48,616 bases of DNA, from positions 1-48,616 of the forward strand of contig CAIMVD010000072.1 of NCBI GenBank assembly GCA_903844815.1. Direction: 5' to 3'. Source of the DNA: an uncultured Bacteroidota bacterium (lineage in GTDB: Bacteria; Bacteroidota; Bacteroidia; Bacteroidales; VadinHA17). Positions 34,417 through 48,616 of this stretch are shown piece after piece. Position 1 is the stretch's first letter. Each line of letters starts with the position of its first letter. The position numbers were made by a program, and so were the translations under genes. The notes beneath the pieces are model-generated. The model saw nothing but the letters and a program-made list of their open reading frames with translations. It made no database searches and was not told the DNA's origin.

Positions 34417-34761
34417 TTACATTAAATCGCCCAGTGGGCCCAGATTGATATTTAAATCCCTGTCGGTTAGGTTAAAATGCTTCTTAAGCTCTTCCATTTT
34501 TAGTTCCAGTTTCATGAGAGTCTCACCCAGCCGTTCAATTTCCTCATCTGTCAATGAGCCGCCATCGACTCTTCTCATAGCTTGTTTCTCGACAAGCTTG
34601 CGGATAAGTTCAATAAGGGTCAGGACAAGTTTAGCCAGACCGGAGTCGGCATTATCGGGCGAAAGCTTAAGCTTGGATTCATCATTGTCAGTCAGTTTTG
34701 CAACCTCCTGCGAAAGATCATCAAGCGATCCTGTATTAAAAAGTATCTTATTGTCGTTCAT
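34417..34761 (-). CDS. gvpK: Gas vesicle protein GvpK
   Basis: This 114-aa protein matches GvpK closely in its core: GLAKLVLTLIELIRKLVEKQ, then AMRRVDGGSLTDEEIERLG, then a MKLELKMEELKK helix, and a terminal NLGPLGDLM. GvpK is an accessory protein needed for vesicle assembly in several bacteria and is thought to act early. It is the last gene of the cluster in the window, 8 nt downstream of a GvpF/L gene. No strong terminator follows. Confidence 0.95.
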   Translation of the reverse strand: MNDNKILFNTGSLDDLSQEVAKLTDNDESKLKLSPDNADSGLAKLVLTLIELIRKLVEKQAMRRVDGGSLTDEEIERLGETLMKLELKMEELKKHFNLTDRDLNINLGPLGDLM

Positions 34762-34769
34762 TGCAGTGT

Positions 34770-35525
34770 TTATTTAATAGTGACATCGACAAAACTGTAG
34801 GGAGGCCATGGCCCTGTCAGAAAAAAGGTTAATCCTGGATTATCATTCTGGATTTCTGCAATTAAATCTATCAGATCACTTTTCTTTTCTTTATCAATCA
34901 GGAAAATTGCGTCAACGATAGTATTATCGGTAAGCATTTTTCTGAACTTGTTTATGGAATTGAGACTGCCAAGGCTGGCGGTTAATGCTGCAATTAATGT
35001 TTCAACATGAGCCAGCATCAACTCCTCAAGCCTGTGCTCGGCGAGTTTTTTATTTACATAGTCGCGGAACACAGAAGTAGTCGTTTGGCCGTCGGATGGT
35101 TTTTCAGTCTTAGAAAGAAAATCTGATTTTGCCAACAATTTAGCTTTAAGTATTTCGGAATCGCAAATTATCTTTAGTCCGAATTCAAATTTCCCGGCTA
35201 CCTTTCCCAGATTTTGCTGAATTTCAGGAGAATTGTTTTCAAGCATTGCTTTAACGGCTTCCGGTGATTCCATAATTGATCCGAACCGCATCGGCAGAAG
35301 AGAAAAGTGAGTGAAAAATGTTTCTATAACGTTTGCATAATCAATTGCAACAGATTTATCTGCTACAAATTCAGATTTATTGACATCACTTACAATTGCG
35401 TTTAAACCACCTCCGGAGATCACATAAAGGGAGGAATCCGAAATTCCTTTAGCAGAAGAAATCAAAGATGCCAGGTGCCCTGATTTGGCATAGTCTGACA
35501 TCAATGCATAGATTAGCTTTTCCAT
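34770..35525 (-). CDS. gvpF/gvpL: Gas vesicle protein GvpF/GvpL (copy 5, most divergent)
   Basis: The 251-aa protein fits GvpF/GvpL by its HFSLLPMRFGSIMESPE segment and the C-terminal GPWPPYSFVDV signature. It is more divergent than the other copies. The N-terminal YIYC/YIYG strand is altered to LIYALMSD, and the central helical region is Ala/Leu-rich. GvpF and GvpL bind GvpA and seed or feed the shell. It overlaps the preceding gvpA-family gene by 13 nt and precedes gvpK by 8 nt. Confidence 0.85.
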   Translation of the reverse strand: MEKLIYALMSDYAKSGHLASLISSAKGISDSSLYVISGGGLNAIVSDVNKSEFVADKSVAIDYANVIETFFTHFSLLPMRFGSIMESPEAVKAMLENNSPEIQQNLGKVAGKFEFGLKIICDSEILKAKLLAKSDFLSKTEKPSDGQTTTSVFRDYVNKKLAEHRLEELMLAHVETLIAALTASLGSLNSINKFRKMLTDNTIVDAIFLIDKEKKSDLIDLIAEIQNDNPGLTFFLTGPWPPYSFVDVTIK

Positions 35526-35734
35526 ACACCAGTCTTTTCCCTCGTTTTCCCGTCTTTTAGTTGTTCCATCGTTTCAACCGAGCTGAGCATAAGTTTTACT
35601 CCAAGATATACAAGGTCTATGTCAGCGACAGAAATGACTATATCACCGGTCAGTATGACTCCCTTGTTCAATACCCTGTCGAGCAGTTCAAGTATTGTAA
35701 TATCTTTTGACTTATCAATTACGTTTTCGTTCAT
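35513..35734 (-). CDS. GvpA-family minor shell protein (GvpM/GvpS/GvpJ-like)
   Basis: This 73-aa protein has the GvpA fold signature ELLDRVLNKGVILTGDIVIS followed by ADIDLVYLGVKLMLSS. The ILTGD and ADIDLVY choices are closer to GvpM/GvpS/GvpJ than to structural GvpA, which has [16 protein letters not shown]. Minor GvpA homologues nucleate or cap the vesicle. It overlaps the upstream GvpF/L gene by 4 nt (ATGA) and the downstream one by 13 nt, so all three are probably translated together. Confidence 0.85.
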   Translation of the reverse strand: MNENVIDKSKDITILELLDRVLNKGVILTGDIVISVADIDLVYLGVKLMLSSVETMEQLKDGKTREKTGVWKS

Positions 35735-36528
35735 ATGACCTTTTCGTTAAGTGAGATGAAACTAAAAGCTGGCCACGGGCCTGTTACTTCAATAGAGAAT
35801 CCCAGGGTTCCATCCTTTTTGAATATCTCATCAGCTTTCCCTCTGAAAGCGTCAACATTTTCCTTTCGCACAAGGCAGGCTGCATTCAGTATCATCTTTT
35901 CTTTTCGTCCGGTTAACTCTTCCGGAAGAAGATTATTGAGGCTTGTTGAATCGCTGATCCTATTATATTCATTAAAATATTCCTGCCCGTAATGATTACA
36001 CAAGCGCTCTGTTTCTTTTTGTATTAATTCAGTTTTCTTCCGGTTCAGGAGGAAGGCTTTGCCAGGCAGGCTCGACTTTATCTGATTTTCAAGGTTTGAA
36101 ACTTCCTCGCTCAGGTGAGAAACTTCCTGTGAAAGAGCATTCAGGTCGCAGTATATCCTGACAGACCATTCTTCCTTTCCTTTAATCTGCCTGAAATTTT
36201 CAACAAGCGAATCGGAATAGGATGATATGAACTTATTCAATCTTTCTTCAGAAAAAAAGATGGTACCGAATTTAAAAGGGATTACAGTTGCATTTTCCAT
36301 AATCCTGCTTATCACGCTAATATGCTCACGTGCATTGGTTTCAAGCCATTTAATATCTGATAAATTTCTCTTGAAGTTTTCTTCAGAGAATTCTTCTTCC
36401 GATACAGGTTTTAAATAAACACAAAAATCCATTACTCTTAAAACGTTCAGGTCGGATATATCTGCAGGAAGGTCACATTGTGGCTGGCTTTCTGACAAGC
36501 AGTATATATATATTAAATTATTGTCCAT
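35731..36528 (-). CDS. gvpF/gvpL: Gas vesicle protein GvpF/GvpL (copy 4)
   Basis: The ATG at 36528 (265 aa) begins MDNNLIYIYCLSES, where family homology starts. A GTG at 36564 overlapping the end of the gvpO-like gene would add 12 residues and cannot be excluded. Diagnostic parts are VIPFKFGTIFFS, a central Glu-rich coiled coil (about residues 135-175), ILNAACLVRKENV and the terminal GPWPAFSFI. It lies between the gvpO-like gene and the second GvpA-family gene. Confidence 0.88.
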   Translation of the reverse strand: MDNNLIYIYCLSESQPQCDLPADISDLNVLRVMDFCVYLKPVSEEEFSEENFKRNLSDIKWLETNAREHISVISRIMENATVIPFKFGTIFFSEERLNKFISSYSDSLVENFRQIKGKEEWSVRIYCDLNALSQEVSHLSEEVSNLENQIKSSLPGKAFLLNRKKTELIQKETERLCNHYGQEYFNEYNRISDSTSLNNLLPEELTGRKEKMILNAACLVRKENVDAFRGKADEIFKKDGTLGFSIEVTGPWPAFSFISLNEKVI

Positions 36529-36556
36529 AAGGTCGACGTCTGGCTGTTTCCGGGTC

Positions 36557-36829
36557 TTATTCACTTGTTAAATCAATTCCTTCAAAGGAATTAAGCCGTT
36601 CGAAGGAGACTATTTCAAGATTTTCATCCATTTTGACAGAATAAAAGAGCCTTACCTGTTTTGGAGGCAGGTTCATTGATTTTAAAAATGAATCATCTTC
36701 ATAAACCTCCGCAACCGAATTCCAGGTCTCACCTGCTTTTTGAATTTTAATGACAGTAACATCATAGCAGCTTATGCTTTCTTTCAGAAAATTGACTACA
36801 GCTTTCTTTACATCAATAATATTGCCCAT
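36557..36829 (-). CDS. gvpO: GvpO-like gas vesicle protein
   Basis: The 90-aa protein has the GvpO pattern: an N-terminal helix, AGETWNSVAEVYEDDSF, then a strand with RLFYSVKMDENLEIVSFER. In GvpO the equivalent is W-x-V-x-VEV-x-E, then YEV-x-LD-x-x-GE-x-x-x-Y-x-R. It is slightly shorter than usual. A strong Shine-Dalgarno-like GGAGGT lies 7 nt ahead of the ATG, unusual in this phylum. GvpO is a soluble factor required for vesicle formation in haloarchaea, with a regulatory role suggested. Confidence 0.72.
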   Translation of the reverse strand: MGNIIDVKKAVVNFLKESISCYDVTVIKIQKAGETWNSVAEVYEDDSFLKSMNLPPKQVRLFYSVKMDENLEIVSFERLNSFEGIDLTSE

Positions 36830-36879: not shown

Positions 36880-37089
36880 TCATTTGATTTTTTCTTCCTT
36901 TTGTGGCTTGACAAGGGTTGGTTTTTTCATTCCATGTCCGCAACCAGGACAAAATTTGTTATCGAAATAAAAGCGCCATTTTTCACCGCATTCCGGGCAA
37001 ATAATATCTAGCTGATAACCACAGTCAATGCAGAATTTTTCTCTGCTGCTGGTTGTTTTTCCGCATTTCGGACATTTAAAGACGTTCAT
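36880..37089 (-). CDS. Double zinc-ribbon protein of the gas vesicle cluster
   Basis: This 69-aa protein holds two four-Cys zinc ribbons: FKCPKCGK with FCIDCGYQ, and IICPECGE with FCPGCGHG. A Lys-rich tail follows. An AGGAGGG Shine-Dalgarno-like sequence precedes the ATG. The position between gvpG and the gvpO-like gene in one tight unit implies a role in vesicle assembly, perhaps as a small adaptor. I know of no assigned Gvp name. Confidence 0.8.
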   Translation of the reverse strand: MNVFKCPKCGKTTSSREKFCIDCGYQLDIICPECGEKWRFYFDNKFCPGCGHGMKKPTLVKPQKEEKIK

Positions 37090-37104: not shown

Positions 37105-37344
37105 TCAATGGTTATTTAATTTTTCATTCCTGATTCTCTCAAGCGATGCCAACAATTCCTCTTCTTTTCTATCGTATTCTTCTTCATCAATCTCATCCAT
37201 CTCAAACTGTAACTGAAGGGCCATCAGCCTTTCTTTAACAGATCCTTCGTCGGATGTTTCCTTTTCAATTACCTCATTTATTTTCTTACCCAGGAAAATA
37301 ATTCCCTTCAGAGGGGCCAGTAGGATGTCGTCGATAATAAACAT
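37105..37344 (-). CDS. gvpG: Gas vesicle protein GvpG
   Basis: The 79-aa protein has the GvpG hallmark N-terminus (DDILLAPLKGIIFLGKKI) followed by acidic helices ending in QFEMDEIDEEEYDRKEEELL. GvpG is a small accessory protein that works with GvpF and GvpL in initial shell assembly. It follows GvpF/L copy 3 after a single base. Confidence 0.93.
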   Translation of the reverse strand: MFIIDDILLAPLKGIIFLGKKINEVIEKETSDEGSVKERLMALQLQFEMDEIDEEEYDRKEEELLASLERIRNEKLNNH

Positions 37345-37345
37345 T

Positions 37346-38128
37346 TCAGATTCCTTTAGTATTGATTACCAAATTTACAAAATTATAGGGAGGTAAGGTA
37401 CCCACATATTTGAAAGTCATAAACTTCCCGTACTTTTCATCCAGCTGGTTTACTGCGCTGTCGAAAACAGGTTCAGAAATGTTCCTGATAAGAAAAGCAG
37501 CATTAAGGATCATCATTTCACCGTAATTATCATTTATTTTAACATCTTCGGAAACAGGAGTCAGCAAATCAAGGATAATTTTCTTATAGGCCTGTGTTTC
37601 TTTCTTAAGTGCCTCAGCAACCATTTCTCCTATTTTCATTCGTTGATAATGAGTTTTATCAACCGGAAGGTGAATAAGTTTATCACGCATTGATCTGATA
37701 GCATCATATTTTTCGATGATTCCTTCGTACATGGCGCTTTCGTGAGCCAGGACTTTCAGGCCAAGCTCTTTTTTTCCCTCCATTTTTCGGAGCATATCAT
37801 CGAATTTGACATAATCTTTTTCAAGTATTCTTTTTATTCCTGAATCATCGTCATGTTCTGAAATTGTAGAGAATCTGACGGGTAGTACAGTAAATTTTTC
37901 CATAACTGCTTCCAGAACCTTTTCGTGCGCAGTCATATTCACACGCCGGGCTTCATACTGGATTATCGGTGAGTTACTTACTATTGCACTAATATCCCTG
38001 AAGCAAATGCCATAGACAAGGTCGGCTCTTTTTCCGATTCCAATGGGGCCGAATTCAATATTCCCCGTACTTCTTATAATCCCATAAATATATTTTCCTT
38101 CTTTTGGCAATTCCGTATCGGTACTCAT
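37346..38128 (-). CDS. gvpF/gvpL: Gas vesicle protein GvpF/GvpL (copy 3)
   Basis: This is a 260-aa GvpF/L protein with the N-terminal strand EGKYIYGIIRST, the FTVLPVRFSTI segment, the YGEMMILNAAFLIRN core and the terminal GTLPPYNFVNLVI. Copies 2 and 3 share the GP[IV]G[IV]G loop near residue 25 and look like a recent pair. The family binds GvpA directly and makes assembly intermediates. It is 1 nt from gvpG and 21 nt behind copy 2. Confidence 0.92.
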   Translation of the reverse strand: MSTDTELPKEGKYIYGIIRSTGNIEFGPIGIGKRADLVYGICFRDISAIVSNSPIIQYEARRVNMTAHEKVLEAVMEKFTVLPVRFSTISEHDDDSGIKRILEKDYVKFDDMLRKMEGKKELGLKVLAHESAMYEGIIEKYDAIRSMRDKLIHLPVDKTHYQRMKIGEMVAEALKKETQAYKKIILDLLTPVSEDVKINDNYGEMMILNAAFLIRNISEPVFDSAVNQLDEKYGKFMTFKYVGTLPPYNFVNLVINTKGI

Positions 38129-38149: not shown

Positions 38150-38923
38150 TTATAATTCCCATTTTTCAGGAAAGATCTTCAGGTCGATAAAATTAAATAT
38201 CGGCAAAGGGGCAGTATATACAAAATCGCTCCTGTCAATAAACTTTTCACCTATTTCTGCCATTATATTATCGAATTCAACCTCTCTGGCGTCATTAACA
38301 AGAAATGCTGTATTCATAAACATCGCATCGCCTGTTGTTTTGTTAAGTTTATATTCAAATACCGATTTCCTGAAGGAATCAATAATAAACCTGGCTTCCT
38401 CCTCTTTTTTTTCGGCCAGTGCCTGTTCTACAAGTTTTCCTGCATCATCAATAAGCTTGTCCCTTAGAGACTTATCCGACATTTTGTCAATTTCGGCCCT
38501 TATTTTCTGGAGTTCGAGATGTTCACAGTCGATCTCCTTGAAAATAACTCCCATACTTTTCCAGGTGCCCCTTACATTAAACTCCACTTTGTTTTCGAAC
38601 TGTTGGAGGAGTTCCATAAACTCGCTGTAGCGCCTGTTTAGAAGGTTTCTGATTTCATCGGGGGTTGCCGCTATCGTTCCGAACCTGATAGGGATAACGC
38701 TTCTGAACTCTTTCATTACAAGTTCAATAACCTTTTGATGGCACATCATGTTTTCGGGATTGACCACGAATCTGCTGAGAGGATGATCGCTGACGACCAT
38801 ACAGAGACCGTCAAATCCGATTGTTGATACCAGGTCGCCCCTTCCTCCTACTCCAACCGGGCCAAGGTTGACATCATATTCCGAAGCTATGATACAATAG
38901 ATATATTTTCCGTCGCGTTGCAT
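38150..38923 (-). CDS. gvpF/gvpL: Gas vesicle protein GvpF/GvpL (copy 2)
   Basis: This is a 257-aa GvpF/L protein: DGKYIYCIIASEYD at the start, a GPVGVGGRGD loop, SVIPIRFGTIAATPDE, a central Lys/Glu-rich helix region (about 120-190), then TAFLVNDAREVEFD and the terminal LPIFNFIDLKI. It starts only 1 nt past the stop of the J-domain fusion gene. Its resemblance to copy 3 suggests tandem duplication inside the cluster. Confidence 0.92.
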   Translation of the reverse strand: MQRDGKYIYCIIASEYDVNLGPVGVGGRGDLVSTIGFDGLCMVVSDHPLSRFVVNPENMMCHQKVIELVMKEFRSVIPIRFGTIAATPDEIRNLLNRRYSEFMELLQQFENKVEFNVRGTWKSMGVIFKEIDCEHLELQKIRAEIDKMSDKSLRDKLIDDAGKLVEQALAEKKEEEARFIIDSFRKSVFEYKLNKTTGDAMFMNTAFLVNDAREVEFDNIMAEIGEKFIDRSDFVYTAPLPIFNFIDLKIFPEKWEL

Positions 38924-38924
38924 T

Positions 38925-39965
38925 TTAATCCTTTATTTTAACCAAAATCAAATTTCCTGTTCTCTTCTCATCCGACTCCGTATTGTTTTCGCTGTTATAT
39001 GATTGTTTTACCGCCAGGGCATATTCAAGAAGAGTATGATAGGCCTGTGTAATCCTTGTAAAATTTTCTTCGCTGCCTGCTTCCTTACTGGTATCAGGAT
39101 GCAGAAGACGAGCCTTTCCAAGGTAAGCTTTTTTTATGTCGGCTTCTGAAGAATTTGCACTAAGGCCAAGCTCCCTTCCCGCCAGTTCTATCTGTTCAGG
39201 TGATAGCTTTTTCACGTCAAGAGTATAAAAACTATAACAAGGAAGAGGCCCGACGAGGCGGAAGTTCAATTTTCCCTCAAATTCCTTATCAAACATATCA
39301 AGGATGCTTTCAAATTTTTCAGAACTGTTTCTTTTAACAAGAAAAGCCGAGTTTGTCACCATCTCATCGTTCATAACCGGGTGATTCCTGATATCAAGGC
39401 TCAATGACGACATAAGATCAAGAAGACGCAGTTCAATCTTAACATTATTTTCCTTCAATTTTGATTGTAGCAGCATTCCTGCCTGCATCTGATCGTCAAG
39501 GGTAGGTTGTTCGTTCTTCTTAAGCAGTTTCTCCTTGAGTGCAATAACATCAGGATGGCTGGCCATTTCCCTCACTGTTGCCGGAAAATCAACCCAGGTA
39601 ACTGCAACGTCAAACTCTGTCAGAAACTGAATCTTTTTCAGGATTGAAGAAATAAGTTCATATCCGCTCAAAAATATCTTGAACACATCTTCCCTGGAAT
39701 TCGCTGTTGTTCCCAGCCGCATAGGGATAATAACGTTGAATCCGATAGCCTGAAGTTCTTCGATTGTTTTCTGATGATGAACCAGAAGGTTCCCGAGTGA
39801 TTCCCTGTCGGTAAAATCGGTCATCAGCATATTCCGTTCAGCTACTATAGCCGACATATTTTCAAAAGGGATGGCAGAAAGACCTGAATTTTCTAGAGAA
39901 CGGAACATTTCCGTACTATAAAAGTTCGGGACAATTCCATAAATGTATAATACTTTTTCTGTCAT
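38925..39965 (-). CDS. GvpF/GvpL fused to a C-terminal DnaJ J domain
   Basis: Residues 1-245 of this 346-aa protein are a complete GvpF/L (LYIYGIVPNFYS, VIIPMRLGTT, TNSAFLVKRN, GPLPCYSFYTLDV). Residues 264-316 (bases 39018-39170) form a J domain: LGLSANSSEADIKKAYLGKA, the HPD triad at 289-291, and helix III and IV residues ITQAYHTLLEYA. The HPD motif is what stimulates Hsp70 ATPase. This physically links the GvpA-binding assembly factor to Hsp70 recruitment. The two parts are in one uninterrupted frame, so this is a true fusion. The tail (317-346) is charged. Confidence 0.9.
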   Translation of the reverse strand: MTEKVLYIYGIVPNFYSTEMFRSLENSGLSAIPFENMSAIVAERNMLMTDFTDRESLGNLLVHHQKTIEELQAIGFNVIIPMRLGTTANSREDVFKIFLSGYELISSILKKIQFLTEFDVAVTWVDFPATVREMASHPDVIALKEKLLKKNEQPTLDDQMQAGMLLQSKLKENNVKIELRLLDLMSSLSLDIRNHPVMNDEMVTNSAFLVKRNSSEKFESILDMFDKEFEGKLNFRLVGPLPCYSFYTLDVKKLSPEQIELAGRELGLSANSSEADIKKAYLGKARLLHPDTSKEAGSEENFTRITQAYHTLLEYALAVKQSYNSENNTESDEKRTGNLILVKIKD

Positions 39966-39975
39966 ATCGGTAGAT

Positions 39976-42141
39976 TTATTTTTTTATTTCATTTTGCTTC
40001 AAAACCAAATCAATTGATTGTTCAAAATGATTCTGAAGGATTGTAATCTCACTTGAAACTTCACCTTTTTTATCAGATTTGTTTTCAATTATTTCCCTTA
40101 TGGCAAGTGTTGCAGCCTTTCTGCATATGAATCCTATATCGGAACCTGTAAGGGTATCGGTTTTTGCTGCCAGTTTTTTAAAATTAACCCCTTTGCCTAT
40201 GGGCTTATTTCGAGTATGGATTTTGAATATTTTCTCGCGTGTCGATTCATCGGGCAGTGGCAATTCGAATATAAGATCGAACCTACCGCTTCTGAGCAGT
40301 GCTGGGTCAATCAGATCTATCCTGTTAGTTGCTGCAAGGACAATCACACCTTTAAGGTCTTCAATGCCGTCCATTTCTGTGAGGAACTGGCCTATAACGC
40401 GATCGATAACGCCTGCTCCTGAACCATCGCTGCTTCGGCGGGGAGTAAGGCTGTCTATTTCATCCAGGAAAAGGATGCAGGGCGAGGCTTGTTTTGCCAT
40501 TCTGAAGAGTTCCCTAACCCCTTTTTCCGATTCACCTATATACCGGCTCAGAATCTGGGGGCCTTTTACCGAGATAAAATTTACACCGCTTTCACTCGCC
40601 AGGGCTTTAGCCAGATAGGTTTTGCCTGTTCCCGGACGCCCGTAAAGAATAATTCCCTTTGGTGGTTTGGTATCGGCTTTTTTAAACAGTTCTGCATATT
40701 TAAGAGGCCATTCAACTGTTTCCATCAAGGCTTCCTTGATATCAGCAAGGCCTCCCACATCCTCCCATTTTACATCAGGCACTTCTACAAATACTTCCCT
40801 GATGGCCGAAGGTTCAATTTCTTTCATGGCATCGAGAAAATTATCCATGTTCACTTCGAGCGACATCAGCAGTTCATAAGGGATATCGGCCATCTCGAAA
40901 TCGATCTTTGGAAGTATCTTCCGAAGTGCTGTCATGGCTGCTTCCCTTGCGAGGGCTTCGAGGTAGGCCCCGACAAAACCGTGGGTAATTTCCGCAAGTC
41001 TTTCAAGATCGACATCTTCCGATAAAGGAATGCCTCTGGTATGGATATGAAGAATTTCGCTTCTTCCTTTTTTATCAGGTATTGAGATTGAAATTTCCCT
41101 GTCGAATCTGCCGGGTCTTCTAAGGGCAGGATCAATGGAATTAGGGATGTTTGTAGCTCCGATCACTATGACCTTACCCCTCGATTCCAACCCGTCCATC
41201 AGTGACAAAAGCTGGGCAACCACCCTTTTCTCTACCTGCTTTTCTCCGCCCATATCTTCGCGCTTGGGTGCAATGGCGTCGATTTCATCAATAAAGATTA
41301 TTGAGGGTGCATGTGCCTGGGCCTCCTCAAAGAGTTTCCTTATCCGCCCTTCGCTTTCTCCATAGAATTTTCCCATGATCTCCGGCCCGGAGATATTTAT
41401 AAAGTAGGCATCAGTCTCGTGAGCTACTGCCCTTACAATCAGGGTTTTGCCTGTTCCGGGAGGTCCGTAGAGGAATACACCCTTTGGTGGTTGCACTCCA
41501 AGCCGTTCAAAAATTTCAGGATACTTAAGAGGAAGCTCTATCATCTCCCTGATACGGTGTACCTGATTTCCAAGACCACCAATATCCTCATATGAGACCT
41601 TCCCTCTTTTTTCTCCGGCCTGTTCCGACGATTCTACCTGGATGCCGGTGAGAGGATGTATCAAAACAACTCCCGCCGGGTTGGTTCCTGTAACTGTATA
41701 ATCTACAGGGCGGGAACCGAAAAGTTTGGCTCTGACTTTGTCTCCTTTTGTAACAGAAAGCCCGTTAATAAGCGATCCAATATATTTTGCATCATCAGCC
41801 CTTACAGCAGATCCCGTTTTTGTATCGGGTTTTAGCTTAATCTTTACTGCCTGGGAGCAGGAAGTTTTTATTATCTTAACCTTTTCATCAATGCCTATCT
41901 GAGCGTTCTCCCTTGTAATGCCGTCAATTTGAATAATGCTTTTACCCCTGTCGTCAGCATAACATGGCATTATCCTGACAGGAGTAGCCCTTTTCCCTTC
42001 AACCAATATTACATCGCCGTTTTCGAGACCCAGCTGAATCATATCCTCGGGGTCGATTCTGGCAACAGATCTTCCGACATCTTTCACGAGGGCTTCTTTT
42101 ACACGAAGAACTGATATATCTTTTGTCTTAGTCATTTTCAT
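39976..42141 (-). CDS. CDC48/VAT-type AAA+ ATPase in the gas vesicle cluster
   Basis: This 721-aa protein has an archaeal/eukaryal-style layout. It has a CDC48 N domain (about 8-90, double-psi barrel), a CDC48_2-like region (about 95-165) and two AAA+ modules. D1 has Walker A GPPGTGKT (226-233), Walker B IIFIDEIDA (281-289) and the RRPGRFD arginine-finger segment. D2 has GRPGTGKT (501-508, Arg where Pro is usual), ILFLDEIDS and RSGRFD. Both sites look catalytically competent. CDC48/VAT hexamers extract and unfold proteins. Here a substrate among Gvp proteins is likely from context. It follows the ArsA-like gene by 18 nt. Confidence 0.93.
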   Translation of the reverse strand: MKMTKTKDISVLRVKEALVKDVGRSVARIDPEDMIQLGLENGDVILVEGKRATPVRIMPCYADDRGKSIIQIDGITRENAQIGIDEKVKIIKTSCSQAVKIKLKPDTKTGSAVRADDAKYIGSLINGLSVTKGDKVRAKLFGSRPVDYTVTGTNPAGVVLIHPLTGIQVESSEQAGEKRGKVSYEDIGGLGNQVHRIREMIELPLKYPEIFERLGVQPPKGVFLYGPPGTGKTLIVRAVAHETDAYFINISGPEIMGKFYGESEGRIRKLFEEAQAHAPSIIFIDEIDAIAPKREDMGGEKQVEKRVVAQLLSLMDGLESRGKVIVIGATNIPNSIDPALRRPGRFDREISISIPDKKGRSEILHIHTRGIPLSEDVDLERLAEITHGFVGAYLEALAREAAMTALRKILPKIDFEMADIPYELLMSLEVNMDNFLDAMKEIEPSAIREVFVEVPDVKWEDVGGLADIKEALMETVEWPLKYAELFKKADTKPPKGIILYGRPGTGKTYLAKALASESGVNFISVKGPQILSRYIGESEKGVRELFRMAKQASPCILFLDEIDSLTPRRSSDGSGAGVIDRVIGQFLTEMDGIEDLKGVIVLAATNRIDLIDPALLRSGRFDLIFELPLPDESTREKIFKIHTRNKPIGKGVNFKKLAAKTDTLTGSDIGFICRKAATLAIREIIENKSDKKGEVSSEITILQNHFEQSIDLVLKQNEIKK

Positions 42142-42159
42142 TGCCGGTTTCCGGACTTT

Positions 42160-43104
42160 TCATTTTTTATCTTCAAAAAGGTATTTTTTCATTTCCGACA
42201 AGGCATTAAGTCCTTTCACCTCTTCGGGAAAGACAGGAACCTGGACCATATTCATATTCCTGAATTTTTCGCTTATCTCTCTTAAATACGGCAACTGGCT
42301 GTTTTTTCTTTTTGTGCAAAAGCTGCATCCTTCTGAAACCATGACATTATTAACAATAATCTGTTGTGGTTTGATACCGGTTTTTGACAGTTCGCCAAGA
42401 AGTCTTTCGGTTTCATTTACAGCCATTGCTTCAGGGATGCATACAGGGATAAATTCACACCTTGTTTTATCGCGCAAAATACTTTCGATTCTTTTTACTG
42501 TTTTCTTCAGGCTGAGCAAAAGGGCATCCACTTCGTCGTGCTGATACGATCCTGAGAAACTTGTGATCATATAACGGTACTTCCACCTCATTCGCGCCGC
42601 CATTTTAATCCATTCATCAAGCATTTCGGGAGATGAAATTAACCTTAGGGCATGTCCAGTCGGAGCTGTGTCGACTACATATTTATCATAATCGCCGGCT
42701 TCAATAAAATCGAGGATGGTTTTAAAACTCATGACCTCGTCAATCCCCGGCACCGATAATGCCAGCATTTCCTCAATGTCGTCATCATCGAGGTTTGTTG
42801 AGGTCGTAAGCAGCTTTTTAAGTTCAGACCTGTGACCGTTAAGAAACTCCGACATGGCTTCTTCTGCTACCACCTCAATAGCCGAAAGGTTTTCTATGCC
42901 TGCAATTTTTACGACCTTGTAACCAATATTCTGTTCGAGACAATCCGATAAGGAATGAGCAGGATCGGCTGAAATCAGAAGCGTTTTAAAATTCTCCGAC
43001 AAGGCCAGAGCCGAAGCAATGGCACAGCTGGTTTTTCCAACTCCCCCTTTCCCTCCGAAAATCAGGAGGCTCAATTTTTCGTTTTCCAAACCAGTCAGTG
43101 CCAT
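42160..43104 (-). CDS. ArsA/Get3-like ATPase in the gas vesicle cluster
   Basis: The 314-aa protein is a SIMIBI ATPase of the ArsA/GET3 family. It has the deviant Walker A GKGGVGKT (18-25), a SADPAHSLSD switch I, DTAPTGH switch II (143-149) and a single CxxC (Cys258-Cys261). That CxxC matches the zinc-binding dimer site of Get3 rather than the three scattered Cys of arsenite-pump ArsA. Get3 shields hydrophobic tail anchors. A similar escort of the hydrophobic GvpA would make sense here, which is inference. No ArsB or arsenic regulator is present. It is 5 nt past gvpH. Confidence 0.9.
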   Translation of the reverse strand: MALTGLENEKLSLLIFGGKGGVGKTSCAIASALALSENFKTLLISADPAHSLSDCLEQNIGYKVVKIAGIENLSAIEVVAEEAMSEFLNGHRSELKKLLTTSTNLDDDDIEEMLALSVPGIDEVMSFKTILDFIEAGDYDKYVVDTAPTGHALRLISSPEMLDEWIKMAARMRWKYRYMITSFSGSYQHDEVDALLLSLKKTVKRIESILRDKTRCEFIPVCIPEAMAVNETERLLGELSKTGIKPQQIIVNNVMVSEGCSFCTKRKNSQLPYLREISEKFRNMNMVQVPVFPEEVKGLNALSEMKKYLFEDKK

Positions 43105-43109
43105 CAGAA

Positions 43110-43628
43110 CTATTTCTTAATCCTTATCTCAAGGATCCCGTTTGTGAATTTGTGGCGTAAATTTTGTTTTGAAGATTTTACAGGCAGCAATAACTCTTTC
43201 CTGTAGGATCTTATTTTGCCATCGGCCTTGATTTCCAGAATATCTTCCTTAAGGTCTATTTCGATATCGTCTTCATCTATTCCCGGCATTTCGGCAAGGA
43301 CAATGATTTCGTGCAACTCATCGAAGAGATCGGTTATTGGTTCGCGTTCCTCGTCGACTTTAGGGCCTTTCGGTGTTTTCCTGATGTTTCCGAAAGTTTC
43401 CACTTTAGTAGTTCCACTGCTTGCTGTATTAATAGTAAAGCCGTAAACTCCTTTCATACCTTTTTTAAGGTGATCGAAATTGATTTCGCCTTCCCTGGTT
43501 ACGCCACCGCTTTGTTCGAGTTTGGCACCAAGGTCTATAAGTTTTTCAATACCTTTAAATAGTCCTCCCAGTCCGAAAAGATCAAAATCATTTTCGTTCT
43601 TTTTGCTGTTGGCATCATCTTTTTCCAT
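43110..43628 (-). CDS. gvpH: Gas vesicle protein GvpH, Hsp20-like
   Basis: The 172-aa protein has a GvpH-type N-terminal half (LFGLGGLFKGIEKLIDLGAK, then a GEINFDHLKKGMKGVYGFTI stretch) and a C-terminal alpha-crystallin domain (about 92-170). The latter holds ITDLFDELHEIIVLAEMPGI, DDIEIDLKEDILEIKA and the final FTNGILEIRIKK. GvpH of haloarchaea binds GvpA and prevents its aggregation. It opens the block of four chaperone-like genes that follow each other closely. Confidence 0.92.
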   Translation of the reverse strand: MEKDDANSKKNENDFDLFGLGGLFKGIEKLIDLGAKLEQSGGVTREGEINFDHLKKGMKGVYGFTINTASSGTTKVETFGNIRKTPKGPKVDEEREPITDLFDELHEIIVLAEMPGIDEDDIEIDLKEDILEIKADGKIRSYRKELLLPVKSSKQNLRHKFTNGILEIRIKK

Positions 43629-43698: not shown

Positions 43699-43998
43699 TT
43701 ACTGTATTTTGTTGATCGCTTCAAGTTTTTCAAGCCTTGCTTCAAGGGTTTCCTGCTGTTGCATAAGTTCTTTCTCTCTGGCCTTTGTTGAGAGGTAAGT
43801 ATCTTCCTGCCACCAGTTTATTCCCATTTCCATAGCTTTGTCAACAGAAGCCACCAGCAGCCTTATTTTAATTGTGAGGAGGTCAATATCCGCTATCTGG
43901 ATTTTAATGTCCCCTGCAATTACTATTCCTTTATCGAGTACTCTTTCAAGAATATCGGCAAGGCCGGTTGCATTAATTGAATGTGTTGGTTCTGACAT
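43699..43998 (-). CDS. gvpJ: GvpA-family protein with C-terminal coiled coil (GvpJ-like)
   Basis: The 99-aa protein has a GvpA core (DILERVLDKGIVIAGDIKIQ, then ADIDLLTIKIRLLVASVDKA) followed by MGINWWQED, typical of the GvpJ branch. The last 35 residues are a Glu/Lys/Gln-rich coiled coil. It is too long and too polar to be the main shell protein. GvpJ homologues act as minor or nucleating shell proteins. It is separated by 12 nt from the 104-aa helical gene. Confidence 0.88.
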   Translation of the reverse strand: MSEPTHSINATGLADILERVLDKGIVIAGDIKIQIADIDLLTIKIRLLVASVDKAMEMGINWWQEDTYLSTKAREKELMQQQETLEARLEKLEAINKIQ

Positions 43999-44010: not shown

Positions 44011-44325
44011 TTAGTAGTCGATTGACATTATCTTAAAATCTCCTTTATCACCTTTAGATGGTTTCTTGCCGGAGCTGGTTGGTTCTGCATGATTCATCAG
44101 TCCTGCTTTCTCATCATTATAGACCTGTATTTCCTTTAGTCTTTTCTGAACAATTTCGAGTCTGAGCAAGAGTCTTATTTCCTCATTTTTCAGCCTTGTT
44201 CTTTCTTTTTCATAGAGATACAATTTAATGAAATCGGATTCTTCTTTGAGAGGAACACCGGATTTGACAACATTCTGCATACTTTTTATGCTCTGAAGTC
44301 CTTTTATTGTACTTGAAATTGGCAT
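44011..44325 (-). CDS. Small helical protein of the gas vesicle cluster
   Basis: This 104-aa product has a central amphipathic helix rich in Glu, Lys, Arg and Leu (about residues 28-70, for example RLLLRLEIVQKRLKEIQVYN) and a polar, Lys/Ser-rich C-terminus (SSGKKPSKGDKGD). I recognise no established Gvp family. Position 12 nt ahead of the GvpJ-like gene argues for a role in assembly. The basic unstructured tail recalls GvpI, but no sequence match is claimed. Confidence 0.6.
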   Translation of the reverse strand: MPISSTIKGLQSIKSMQNVVKSGVPLKEESDFIKLYLYEKERTRLKNEEIRLLLRLEIVQKRLKEIQVYNDEKAGLMNHAEPTSSGKKPSKGDKGDFKIMSIDY

Positions 44326-44411: not shown

Positions 44412-44831
44412 TTAAAGATATTCCTTAACCTGATTCCAGTAGATAAATGTTTTTCTTCCTGAACCATTCCAGTTCCTCGCTATTAGTTCAAAATTATAAG
44501 GTCCGATCTTCGAGGCATAATAGAGGAATATCTTTTCAGATATCTTATAACTATACACGTCCCTGGCTGTATAATTACTTCCGGTTCTCCTGTTGTAGTC
44601 CAGAAGCCGGATGGGACGTATCTGTAAAAATCCTACAGCTTCCTCAACCGGATTATAAGCCAGGGTATCTATACCTGTTTCCACCATTCCCAGTGCATAA
44701 ATGAGGTTGGAAAAAGCCTGGACCGGTGGTTTTTTGCCAATAGTGATAAATCCGTTATTAGGTGCAAAAGCAAAAGATGCATAGGATGAGAAAAAAGTAA
44801 TGGTTGCTATTTTTTTAAAGTAAGTCGTCAT
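44412..44831 (-). CDS. Exported lysozyme/transglycosylase-like protein in the gas vesicle cluster
   Basis: The 139-aa protein has a signal peptide (about 1-23, ending SFAFA) and a lysozyme-fold pattern: ALGMVETGIDTLAYNPVEEA with a candidate catalytic Glu in METG, VGFLQIRPIRLLDYNRRTG, then IARNWNGSGRKTFIYWNQV. These are the E-S/T-G, G-x-LQI-x-P and ARxWNGG elements of small transglycosylase-like enzymes. A muralytic enzyme is out of place in a gas vesicle operon. The gaps on both sides (86 and 96 nt) are the widest nearby, so it may be an insertion with its own control. Confidence 0.68.
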   Translation of the reverse strand: MTTYFKKIATITFFSSYASFAFAPNNGFITIGKKPPVQAFSNLIYALGMVETGIDTLAYNPVEEAVGFLQIRPIRLLDYNRRTGSNYTARDVYSYKISEKIFLYYASKIGPYNFELIARNWNGSGRKTFIYWNQVKEYL

Positions 44832-44927: not shown

Positions 44928-45845
44928 TCAGGCAAATTGTTCTATGAGTTCATTTACAATTGCCCTTACCTTTTCCTGATTGGTTTTTGATCCGATCCTG
45001 CTGGTTTCTGAAGTAAGTATATCCTGACAAATTTTTCTGAACTCTGTTTTTGATTGAGTTGGTGTTGTATTAAGGGTTGCCAGGGTTTTTGCAATCATTA
45101 TTGAACCGCGGATCGTTGGATCGAATTCCGTTTTTCCTGATTCTCTGAGGCCTCTGACAATTTTTACAATAATCTCGGTATCTTTTAGTGAAAGGTTCGA
45201 TTTTGCCCTTGTAATTTGTAATTCAGTTTCAAAGTCAAAGTGGTCAAGGTCCATTGTAACCATCCTGTCGCGCAGCGCGTCCTGTGTCCGGTTAACTCCG
45301 GCATATTCTTCAGGGTTTGAAGTAAATATTGCACGAAACTCGGGATGAACTTTCATATAATAATCCTCTTCTTTAGCTGCCGAGGTGCTGAGCATTCTCT
45401 CCTGAAGAATTGGCAGAAGGATGTTGTTTGCCTCCGGGCGTGACCTGGTAAATTCATCATAAATCAGGGTAAATCCGTTTTTTACAGCAATCGTCAAACG
45501 ATTATTTACCCATTGTTTGGTCATGTCCTCTTCGTATTTATGGACAGAATGGATAAATTTGTCATCGAGTTTTTTGTATTTATAACCCTGTTCACTACCG
45601 ATAAGGTCAGAAGTTTTATACTCGGCGTCGCCATGAATTATGACCACTGGTCTTCCTATCTTGCTTGCCAGATGCATCGCTACTGTTGTTTTGCCAGTAC
45701 CTGAAGGACCTCTGAAATGGACGGGAAAACCTGCTTTTATGTAAGTCAGGCCGCGGCTTGTAATATCTTTGATGTAGTCAGTCTCGACAAAATTCGACAT
45801 TGGCTTCAGTTCAAGGACCGTATTCATTTCATTATTATTGCTCAT
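44928..45845 (-). CDS. gvpN: Gas vesicle protein GvpN, MoxR-like AAA+ ATPase
   Basis: The 305-aa protein is a MoxR-type AAA+ ATPase with Walker A GPSGTGKT (46-53), a GYKYKKLDDKFIHSVHKYE segment typical of GvpN, Walker B TLIYDEFTRS, sensor 1 IFTSNPEEYAGVN and arginine finger ALRDRMV. GvpN drives vesicle growth, and its loss gives small, bipyramid-like vesicles in other systems. It lies 21 nt after the 62-aa helical gene. Confidence 0.96.
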   Translation of the reverse strand: MSNNNEMNTVLELKPMSNFVETDYIKDITSRGLTYIKAGFPVHFRGPSGTGKTTVAMHLASKIGRPVVIIHGDAEYKTSDLIGSEQGYKYKKLDDKFIHSVHKYEEDMTKQWVNNRLTIAVKNGFTLIYDEFTRSRPEANNILLPILQERMLSTSAAKEEDYYMKVHPEFRAIFTSNPEEYAGVNRTQDALRDRMVTMDLDHFDFETELQITRAKSNLSLKDTEIIVKIVRGLRESGKTEFDPTIRGSIMIAKTLATLNTTPTQSKTEFRKICQDILTSETSRIGSKTNQEKVRAIVNELIEQFA

Positions 45846-46056: not shown

Positions 46057-46368
46057 CTATTTAAATCCTTTTCCACCGCAACGGGTACACGGAAGTCCGT
46101 CTCCTGATTTTCCCGACCCGTTGCATTGGACACATAAAATACTGCTTGCATAATGATTGAATCCCTTTCCACCGCATACTATACAGGGGACTCTTGAACC
46201 CAGGGGATTTTTTCCGGAGCCAGAACAGAACGGACACGCCTTCATTGGCTCTTCAACCTCAACGTGTCCGCTCCTGTTGCAAACCAGGCAATGTGAAACC
46301 GGCGATAATAAGTTAAAAGGATCTTTTCCTGTTCCACCGCAATATGCACAATTTATTACTTTAGCCAT
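46057..46368 (-). CDS. Stand-alone DnaJ-type cysteine-rich zinc-finger protein
   Basis: The ATG at 46368 gives 103 aa (MAKVINCAYCGG...). The protein is made almost entirely of CxxCxGxG-type motifs: CAYCGGTG, CLVCNRSG, CPFCSGSG, CIVCGGKG, CVQCNGSG and CTRCGGKG. These six pairs could build three zinc sites, against two in DnaJ. There is no J domain and no C-terminal substrate domain. In DnaJ this region binds unfolded clients. A J domain is found instead fused to a GvpF/L protein in the same cluster (38925-39965). Confidence 0.85.
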   Translation of the reverse strand: MAKVINCAYCGGTGKDPFNLLSPVSHCLVCNRSGHVEVEEPMKACPFCSGSGKNPLGSRVPCIVCGGKGFNHYASSILCVQCNGSGKSGDGLPCTRCGGKGFK

Positions 46369-46432
46369 GGTCTGATTTTTTATTAATTTCAGTGTTTGCA
46401 AAAATCTGTCAGCAATTTTTTAACTGATCGGA

Positions 46433-48453: not shown

Positions 48454-48616
48454 TTATGCGGCTTTAGCAGTTAAACCAATTGCTTCAGCATACTTGAGGT
48501 ATGTTTCAACAGAGGCAACGACTATTCTTGCTTCAATTGCAAGCAGTTCGATACCAACGAGAGAAACTCTTACCCATGCGTCAACTACAACACCTTTGTC
48601 AAGGATACGGTCGATA
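48454..48616 (-). CDS. gvpA: Gas vesicle structural protein GvpA (3' part, truncated by window edge)
   Basis: Only the last 53 codons and the stop are inside the window. They read [20 protein letters not shown] followed by [20 protein letters not shown], then [13 protein letters not shown]. This is the canonical GvpA shell sequence: the amphipathic helix 1 end, the two beta strands with a [11 protein letters not shown] turn, and helix 2. It should be the main rib protein. The N-terminus and promoter lie beyond base 48616. Confidence 0.97.

Follow-up and report, generated by a model that had tools for sequence, protein, structure and literature searches.

How GvpA, an extremely hydrophobic protein, is kept soluble, placed and corrected during gas vesicle biogenesis is an open question. 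The DNA considered here is a 48,616-nt contig of an uncultured Bacteroidota bacterium (GenBank assembly GCA_903844815.1, contig CAIMVD010000072.1; this whole stretch is called the window below). On the minus strand at 38925–43628, four adjacent genes separated by 5, 18 and 10 nt encode a small heat-shock protein (Hsp20; 43110–43628, 172 aa), a single-domain Get3/TRC40/ArsA-type ATPase (Get3; 42160–43104, 314 aa), a full-length Cdc48 (39976–42141, 721 aa) and a GvpF/L protein with a C-terminal J domain (GvpF-J; 38925–39965, 346 aa). A DnaJ-type zinc-finger protein without a J domain (46057–46401, minus strand) is proposed as a fifth part. The initial annotation of this DNA had reported four adjacent chaperone genes with small gaps, and the coordinates bear this out; of the four classes that it named, Hsp20, Get3 and Cdc48 stand, and the fourth gene proved to be a gvp gene itself, a GvpF/L carrying the J domain. 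Together, the helper genes probably form a dedicated, only partly described machine for very hydrophobic vesicle proteins. As a recurring set of four to five chaperone types, they make the question directly testable, also in cyanobacteria.

The block lies within a gas vesicle cluster and recurs in other genomes

According to the list of open reading frames (ORFs) and to Pfam and NCBIfam matches, the part of the window's minus strand between about 48.6 and 34.4 kb forms a gas vesicle cluster, in which GvpA-family, GvpN, GvpF/L, GvpG and GvpK genes all occur together. The block had been taken for a module of its own, and this part of the annotation fell: it is no separate unit and sits within a run of 14 same-strand genes that extends from a GvpA-family gene (43699) to GvpK with gaps of −13 to 70 nt. 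The next gvpF starts 1 nt after the GvpF-J gene, and more same-strand gvp genes lie upstream of the run.

Gas vesicle loci of other genomes, which the annotation had suggested surveying as a check, show the same four-gene order. Within the window's phylum, the order Hsp20-Get3-Cdc48-GvpF-J is retained in the fully read clusters of family f19 and in the one genome each of families f17 and f18. Three arrangements recur: type A is this order; in type B, Hsp20-Cdc48-GvpF stand together, a two-domain Get3 follows GvpG elsewhere and the J domain is absent; in type C, Hsp20-Cdc48 have GvpF-J nearby. Get3 copies from the other types mostly have two domains and a length of about 650 aa, with two ArsA_ATPase stretches in all five copies scanned. 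Among 52 distinct Cdc48 loci (N-domain-less cyanobacterial ones excluded), 16 have Hsp20-Get3-Cdc48 (17 with L073, which has inserted genes), 20 have Hsp20 as the nearest labelled gene upstream of Cdc48, and 15 show neither pattern. That the parts recur while their order varies speaks more strongly for a working set than a single conserved order would.

Several loci show peculiarities of their own. Genome G395 has two gas vesicle clusters (L163 and L345), both with Hsp20-Get3-Cdc48-GvpF-J. By eye, cyclase-like and lipoprotein-like genes in the opposite direction lie between Get3 and Cdc48 in L073, L075 and L099, three loci of family f30 of the window's phylum, and a toxin-antitoxin-like pair separates Hsp20 from Get3 in L073. 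In the Bacillus-type gvp cluster of Halobacillus aidingensis (L231), a Get3-type gene is found about 5 kb past the last gvp gene.

The wider distribution was examined by scanning genome_contigs with the Get3 alignment. There were at least 600 pattern matches, of which 80 loci were kept, so that more phyla than those listed may be involved; titles of metagenome-assembled genomes (MAGs) may err. The best 11 of these 80 all lie within gvp clusters; they come from a Chitinophaga-titled MAG, three Chlorobiaceae MAGs, a Nitrospinota MAG with identical four-gene order, and records titled Patescibacteria, Chloroflexaceae, Geobacteraceae, 'archaeon', Dehalococcoides and Hakubella. Among lower-ranked matches, Get3 and Cdc48 occur in gvp clusters of Hydrogenedentes, Acidobacteria and Thiohalocapsa.

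Cdc48 co-occurs with GvpA and is compatible with a single gas vesicle lineage

Co-occurrence was scored in three phylum samples, counting Cdc48 matches at E 1e-150 or better and taking genomes as independent though they are not. Among 395 genomes of the window's phylum, 38 have GvpA and 29 have Cdc48: 28 have both, 10 GvpA only, 1 Cdc48 only and 356 neither. Recounted by genus, which was done for this phylum only, the corresponding figures are 9, 3, 1 and 158. In the phylum of the Geobacteraceae MAG (267 genomes; 23 GvpA-positive, 27 Cdc48-positive), they are 17, 6, 10 and 234, and in the cyanobacterial phylum, that of the Lyngbya record (136 genomes), 22, 1, 0 and 113. Matches above the family cut-off number 27 of 29 in the window's phylum, 18 of 27 in the second and 0 of 22 in cyanobacteria, where the N domain is missing. 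That the four-gene arrangement is more than chance is confirmed by the recurring order and by co-occurrence of Cdc48 and GvpA far above expectation in all three samples.

A free quick tree of 71 Cdc48 rows contains a 42-row group (support 84) made up of gas vesicle genomes only. Forcing all 45 gas-vesicle-type rows onto one side gave a likelihood 8.65 higher and was not rejected (p-AU 0.69); this group was defined after the first tree had been seen, so that the p-value is no blind test, and GvpA-negative and archaeal rows are absent from it by choice. Three of the 45 rows (L251, L267 and L294) lay close to the 42-row group in the free tree but not within it. Kept out of the 45 were L278, L301, L304, L305 and L306, which come from gas vesicle genomes and belong to other Cdc48 lineages. 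The first tree was made without cyanobacterial rows (length filter), partial copies and the near-copies L041, L045, L046, L048, L050, L052, L054, L062 and L065; for the second, L306 (long branch) and L361 (near-copy) were removed and L374 was added. Thirty-eight of the 45 lie beside gvp genes and five are f30 copies; the remaining two are L290, which adjoins Hsp20 at the edge of its contig, and L294, whose contig is 3.8 kb long. Five loci (L248, L249, L253, L256 and L259) were relabelled from unlinked to linked once their surroundings had been re-read.

Joining the cyanobacterial rows, which sit on a long branch, to the 45 made the tree 0.76 log units worse and was not rejected (p-AU 0.48); their descent from the same lineage is possible. 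The ten Cdc48-only genomes of the second phylum fall outside the gas vesicle group, and the Cdc48 of G231, the sole Cdc48-positive, GvpA-negative genome of the window's phylum, groups with archaeal copies. The Cdc48 lineage is compatible with a single gas vesicle group that can be separated from the sampled archaeal copies. In G400, a record titled archaeon (L342/L171), the gvp cluster has a two-domain Get3 and a gas-vesicle-type Cdc48 on the other strand; a second Cdc48 of that genome groups with archaeal copies.

Because 28 of 29 Cdc48-positive genomes in the window's phylum have GvpA, because the copies can be grouped on the tree and because the parts recur in gvp clusters of several phyla, a dedicated gas vesicle chaperone and remodelling module appears well supported. 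To that extent the annotation's idea of a dedicated proteostasis module stands; the individual steps of the route that it envisaged are conditional and are taken up below.

The Cdc48, Hsp20 and Get3 proteins

The window's Cdc48 scores 913 bits against TIGR01243 CDC48 (cut-off 803), CDC48_N and CDC48_2 are over their cut-offs, and two AAA stretches are matched as well. It has the N domain, D1 and D2, with Walker A and B motifs at both ATPase sites (alignment A3), and the nearest solved sequences are the VCP-like ATPases 5g4f/5g4g. Near residue 393, at a nearly invariant position of D1, it reads VGAYL where the other 15 A3 sequences read VGADL.

The Hsp20 has an alpha-crystallin domain, the Pfam HSP20 match at residues 106–172 reaching 25.7 bits (cut-off 20.8); against the NCBIfam archaeal Hsp20 it scores 122.5 bits, under the cut-off of 140. 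Its gas-vesicle-type N-terminal arm holds an amphipathic motif, GLFKGIEKLIDLGAKLEQ, that is conserved in the Hsp20 alignment A4. Small heat-shock proteins typically carry an IxI motif in a C-terminal extension; most A4 proteins stop a few residues past the last conserved strand.

The Get3 scores 267 bits against ArsA_ATPase and 264 bits against TIGR00345 GET3/ArsA/TRC40 (cut-off 135). The deviant P-loop GGKGGVGKT and DTAPTGH are intact and there is one CxxC (alignment A1), which is present in the window, L072 and L069 copies and absent from the f19 and f30 copies. CxxC is also missing from some accepted Get3 proteins (PMC10248533; here and below, statements on cited papers refer to the accessible parts of their text). 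In the AlphaFold model (pLDDT 86.9), the top Foldseek matches are M. therm. TRC40 (3zq6) and M. jannaschii Get3 (3ug7); by sequence, the two-domain ArsA1 5zme ranks first among solved structures. The P-loop, the ArsA fold and the predicted TRC40-like structure place the protein in the Get3/TRC40 class. It has no alpha-crystallin extension, with ArsA_ATPase spanning 13–310 of 314 residues and no HSP20-type match, and is therefore not a Get3d. The f19 genomes, for example L090 and L092 (titled Chlorobiaceae), have a single-domain Get3 of about 312–324 aa, again with no alpha-crystallin domain, plus paralogues of about 400 aa; this conflicts with the statement, in the accessible text of PMC10248533, that green sulfur bacteria have no Get3-like homologue besides Get3d.

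A J domain on GvpF and a separate zinc-finger protein

By Pfam, GvpF-J consists of GvpL_GvpF at residues 6–247 (136.5 bits) and DnaJ at residues 266–312 (44 bits). The top fold match of its model (mean pLDDT 87.9) is the solved GvpF 6l5d (E 1.1e-13), and J domains appear lower among the matches (E 0.01, probability 1.00). Domain and fold thus mark the protein as GvpF/L, and fold together with an HPD motif at residues 289–291 marks its J domain. HPD is invariant in 11 of 11 aligned copies, and 28 of the 29 GvpF-J rows retain it (26 rows when duplicates are removed), the exception, L070, being cut by a contig end; the search profile was built from HPD-holding copies, so that HPD-less copies could escape these counts.

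The zinc-finger protein has five CxxCxGxG repeats by pattern, and its match to Pfam DnaJ_CXXCXGXG (E 2.4e-7, 31.4 bits) is under the cut-off of 32.7. A phmmer search yielded 20 further matches in 14 other loci, all 20 in gas vesicle loci (the set comprised 105 gas vesicle loci and 70 others). These relatives often carry a motif like CAFCxGxGKDPFG. None was found in the f17–f19 clusters read. A DnaJ joins J domain and zinc finger in one protein; here the J domain is on GvpF and the repeats are on a separate protein, and the pair resembles, in some lineages only, a DnaJ split over two proteins.

An Hsp20-like motif on cyanobacterial Cdc48

The match to the CDC48 family begins after the N domain in 21 of the 22 cyanobacterial Cdc48 relatives, and 15 of the 22 genes have a GvpA-family gene no more than 7 kb away. 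In the 18 N-domain-less proteins that were read, the N domain is replaced by an N-terminal motif like DLFKGFEQLLELAKTLEEK...GEIKTD. This motif is amphipathic beyond shuffled sequences, with 1 to 9 of 2000 shuffles equally high in three examples. A profile of the cyanobacterial motif, run on the 20,029 six-frame ORFs from all loci, returned itself and two cyanobacterial ORFs, followed by gas vesicle Hsp20 proteins (best E 1.1e-4). The reverse profile, built from all gas vesicle Hsp20 N-terminal arms, had the cyanobacterial Cdc48 proteins as its best matches outside its own set (best E 1.2e-3), and hhalign aligned the Hsp20 arm with the cyanobacterial motif at probability 85.

No Hsp20 match was found in the cyanobacterial loci read, G739 excepted. 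In G739, the 22nd copy, the Cdc48 retains its N domain and starts 3 nt after a separate Hsp20; the gene runs off the contig end. The N-domain-less cyanobacterial Cdc48 is likely a fusion of Hsp20 and Cdc48 parts, and the layout of G739 looks like the state before that fusion. The shared motif suggests that Hsp20 may serve as a substrate or docking arm of Cdc48.

Proposed working of the module and alternatives

Taken together, these observations make it reasonably probable that a chaperone and remodelling module dedicated to gas vesicles has this block as its core; it would work as follows. GvpF-J would bind hydrophobic GvpA-type subunits, as GvpF does elsewhere, while its J domain recruits the cell's Hsp70 (DnaK), a step that the DnaJ-type zinc-finger protein would perhaps aid. 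Hsp20 would hold surplus or misfolded GvpA-type subunits dispersed. Get3, presumably a dimer here and a two-domain protein in other phyla, would shield hydrophobic segments, and ATP hydrolysis would release them at the assembly site, not at a membrane. Cdc48, docked to Hsp20 or, in cyanobacteria, through its own Hsp20-like motif, would thread and unfold stuck or misassembled GvpA or Gvp complexes for reuse of the subunits. The staged route of the annotation (hold, escort, correct, hand over), with its order and direction, is in this form something that we infer from gene content; the same applies to the identity of the client, the order of steps, the physical contacts and the choice between assembly, repair and disassembly.

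Several observations weigh against this proposal. Separation from gvp genes in relatives, which the annotation had named as a finding that would speak against a module, is seen in part in f30: in eight of nine Cdc48-positive genomes, Cdc48 lies apart from the gvp genes, and only in G133 is it on a gvp contig. Get3 is close to Cdc48 in G125, G133, G272 and G390 only; the two are on different contigs in G079, G137, G237 and G288, and G338 has a distant Get3 match only. None of the nine f30 genomes gave a GvpF-J match, and none came from the clusters that combine a two-domain Get3 with the order Hsp20-Cdc48-GvpF. All nine f30 genomes do carry gvp genes. In the second phylum, 10 of 27 Cdc48-positive genomes have no GvpA, and GvpA occurs without Cdc48 in 10 of 38, 6 of 23 and 1 of 23 GvpA-positive genomes of the three samples. 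When these 17 genomes, and three more with gas vesicle genes, were searched with relaxed settings, the only matches were to one AAA module at 28–50% identity, which read as FtsH and other AAA proteins. In the window's phylum, L082 (G064) and L083 (G309) show gvp genes without Cdc48; absence is unsure in some cases, as a contig of G280 breaks off in a 59-aa Cdc48 end (L085) and the GvpA matches of others are at contig ends. The genome with the Halobacillus cluster L231 has no Cdc48 at E 1e-150. The likeness between the cyanobacterial motif and Hsp20 is short and moderately significant, the window's own Hsp20 reaching only E 0.2, and a first, narrower Hsp20 profile did not list the cyanobacterial Cdc48 proteins at E 0.01. 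Finally, deletion of GvpH, an Hsp20-like or chaperone-like protein, does not abolish vesicle formation in Serratia or H. salinarum (PMC4982088, PMC9501494). Since GvpH is not essential there, the module may improve yield, fidelity or turnover and not be strictly required.

The last point leads to the alternative that is hardest to set aside, in which Cdc48 and Hsp20 mainly dissolve collapsed vesicles or dead-end GvpA aggregates, for buoyancy or recycling, and assembly is the separate task of Get3 and GvpF-J. No two parts are paired more tightly than Cdc48 and Hsp20, which are nearest labelled neighbours with no Get3 between them in the 20 loci counted above and share a motif in cyanobacteria; two-domain Get3 often adjoins GvpG, and the dispensability of GvpH suits a clearing role. 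On the other hand, Get3 is the nearest labelled gene upstream of Cdc48 in 9 of 18 cyanobacterial loci, and the genes sit in an assembly operon. We regard such a division between quality control and assembly as a serious possibility, though a doubtful one.

Targeting of tail-anchored membrane proteins, with Get3 serving a membrane substrate and its gas vesicle link being secondary, is suggested by the nearest solved folds, which are TRC40/Get3, and by the CxxC that the window's Get3 retains. This reading is disfavoured by the loss of CxxC from the aligned f19 and f30 copies, by the location of the best 11 of 80 Get3 matches in gvp clusters, and by the cluster itself, in which no membrane protein of the Get1/Get2 type came to notice, where no search was aimed at them; we consider it unlikely. 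That Cdc48 feeds unfolded GvpA or regulators to a protease would accord with the supply of proteasomes by Cdc48-type ATPases elsewhere. This too is disfavoured, as the Cdc48 tails show no conserved end in A3 and no protease family is among the matches of 20 cluster proteins, the rest of the genome not having been searched for proteases, and a degradative role strikes us as very unlikely. Generic stress genes that drifted into the cluster would fit the general functions that every family has elsewhere, and we reject this as highly improbable on the strength of the co-occurrence in three phylum samples and of a Cdc48 compatible with one tree group, to which add the recurrence in different orders, the J domain fused to a gvp part, and a window genome with no other full-length Cdc48 match and no second Get3 match at E 1e-15.

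To our knowledge, and judging from gene lists, Bacillus and haloarchaeal model clusters are without most of the module proposed here. In its most general form, the proposal would be that many bacterial gas vesicles are built or repaired by a dedicated, ATP-driven machine, with a Cdc48 whose substrate arm is the N-terminal motif of a partner Hsp20 (in most phyla a protein of its own, in cyanobacteria joined to Cdc48), Get3 as carrier and a split DnaJ whose J domain is borne by GvpF, the protein that binds GvpA, a machine which is mostly absent from common model clusters and was hence overlooked; we put this forward tentatively, our confidence falling a little short of an even balance. If true, bacteria would be seen to employ Cdc48 and Get3 for a dedicated task bound to an organelle. 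The fusions hint at which parts of the module touch, and the module could raise the yields of engineered gas vesicles.

Other genes of the cluster

All remaining genes of the cluster are likewise on the minus strand. The cluster begins with a GvpA-family gene cut by the end of the window and contig (48454–48615; PF00741 match at 48514–48615, 51.7 bits), followed by two coiled-coil proteins, the zinc-finger protein, the AAA+ ATPase GvpN (44928–45845; TIGR02640, 350 bits, cut-off 267), a small coiled protein that is possibly GvpV (44011–44325) and, directly upstream of Hsp20, a GvpA-family protein (43699–43998; PF00741, 62 bits). The possible GvpV is proposed from its position and ending and is kept in relatives; an ORF resembling it in L357 (7556–7873), on the other strand, is flanked by GvpG and a GvpF-like gene. 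In Anabaena, alr2246/gvpV adjoins gvpG and gvpW (PMC7204071). Between GvpN and the possible GvpV, a 139-aa protein (44412–44831) without a Pfam or NCBIfam match resembles a lytic-transglycosylase fragment by eye and was seen in no other locus read.

Downstream of GvpF-J, four GvpF/L paralogues are interleaved with other genes. The first two (38150–38923, PF06386, 178.6 bits; 37346–38128, 196.8 bits) precede GvpG (37105–37344; PF05120, 67.2 bits), a double zinc-ribbon protein (36880–37089; PF12773, 42.7 bits) that recurs in three other gas vesicle loci (L319, L345 and L321), and a GvpO-like protein (36557–36829) whose PF05800 match of 20.3 bits is under the cut-off of 25. A third GvpF/L (35731–36564, 168.1 bits), a GvpA-family protein (35513–35734; PF00741, 56.2 bits), the fourth GvpF/L (34770–35525, 163.2 bits) and GvpK (34417–34761; PF05121, 116.4 bits) complete the order.

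Comparison with known systems

Parts of this set have been described. In 2010, Castillo and Saier noted that gvp clusters from several phyla contain arsA homologues and hsp20, for which they proposed energising and chaperone roles (PMC2963123). In that account, an ArsA/Get3-type ATPase and Hsp20 lie beside gvp genes in Polaribacter, Pelodictyon and Geobacter (for the last, ArsA, with hsp20 implied), and the Anabaena and Nostoc clusters have ArsA and no hsp20. The gas vesicle ArsAs described there are two-domain proteins of about 640 aa, whereas the window's Get3 is a single domain of 314 aa; Cdc48, GvpF-J and the zinc-finger protein, which are present in the window's cluster, go unmentioned in the accessible parts of the paper. 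ArsA has 0 occurrences in the paper on the Anabaena 7120 cluster (PMC7204071). No description of Cdc48, GvpF-J, the zinc-finger protein or the cyanobacterial motif in connection with gas vesicles was found in partial listings of the open-licence PMC literature. The word undescribed in the annotation thus has to be narrowed: ArsA and hsp20 in gvp clusters were published in 2010, and the Cdc48 and J-domain parts appear in no paper found. What is new lies above all in the gas-vesicle-type Cdc48 and in how nearly completely it co-occurs with GvpA in the cyanobacterial sample, in a GvpF-J that retains its HPD, and in the motif resembling that of Hsp20 which the cyanobacterial Cdc48 carries.

Chaperone roles for Gvp proteins have been suggested before. 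GvpF is the sole Gvp to interact with GvpA in split-GFP assays, pull-downs showing more partners, and may chaperone GvpA (PMC9501494); GvpF and GvpG have been proposed as GvpA chaperones, and GvpN for preparing or proofreading GvpA (PMC11445434). Like the haloarchaeal and enterobacterial GvpH, the window's Hsp20 is a gas vesicle accessory protein, and in haloarchaea GvpH prevents aggregation of GvpM (PMC6107691). The accessible text of that paper lists neither Cdc48 nor Get3 among the 14 haloarchaeal gvp genes, and gvpH is absent from A. flos-aquae and B. megaterium (PMC4982088). In Get3d, the Get3 fold and an alpha-crystallin domain occur in one protein, whereas in the window they are on two neighbouring genes; 'gas vesicle' has 0 occurrences in the Get3d paper (PMC10248533).

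In yeast, Hsp40/Hsp70 capture hydrophobic clients that are relayed on to Get3 (PMC10761869). The neighbouring GvpF-J and Get3 genes call this relay to mind, here with the vesicle as its presumed end point, and the eukaryotic GET pathway (Hsp40/Hsp70 to Sgt2 to Get3) and the module both join a J domain and a Get3 for very hydrophobic clients. The two differ in that Sgt2, Get4/5 and Get1/2 were not noticed in the window's cluster, where no aimed search was made, and in that a protein shell takes the place of a membrane as the presumed target. Cdc48/p97 and archaeal VAT have the same full domain set as the window's Cdc48, which is distinguished by its place inside a gvp cluster; the cyanobacterial gas vesicle copies depart further from Cdc48/p97, with an Hsp20-like motif in place of the N domain.

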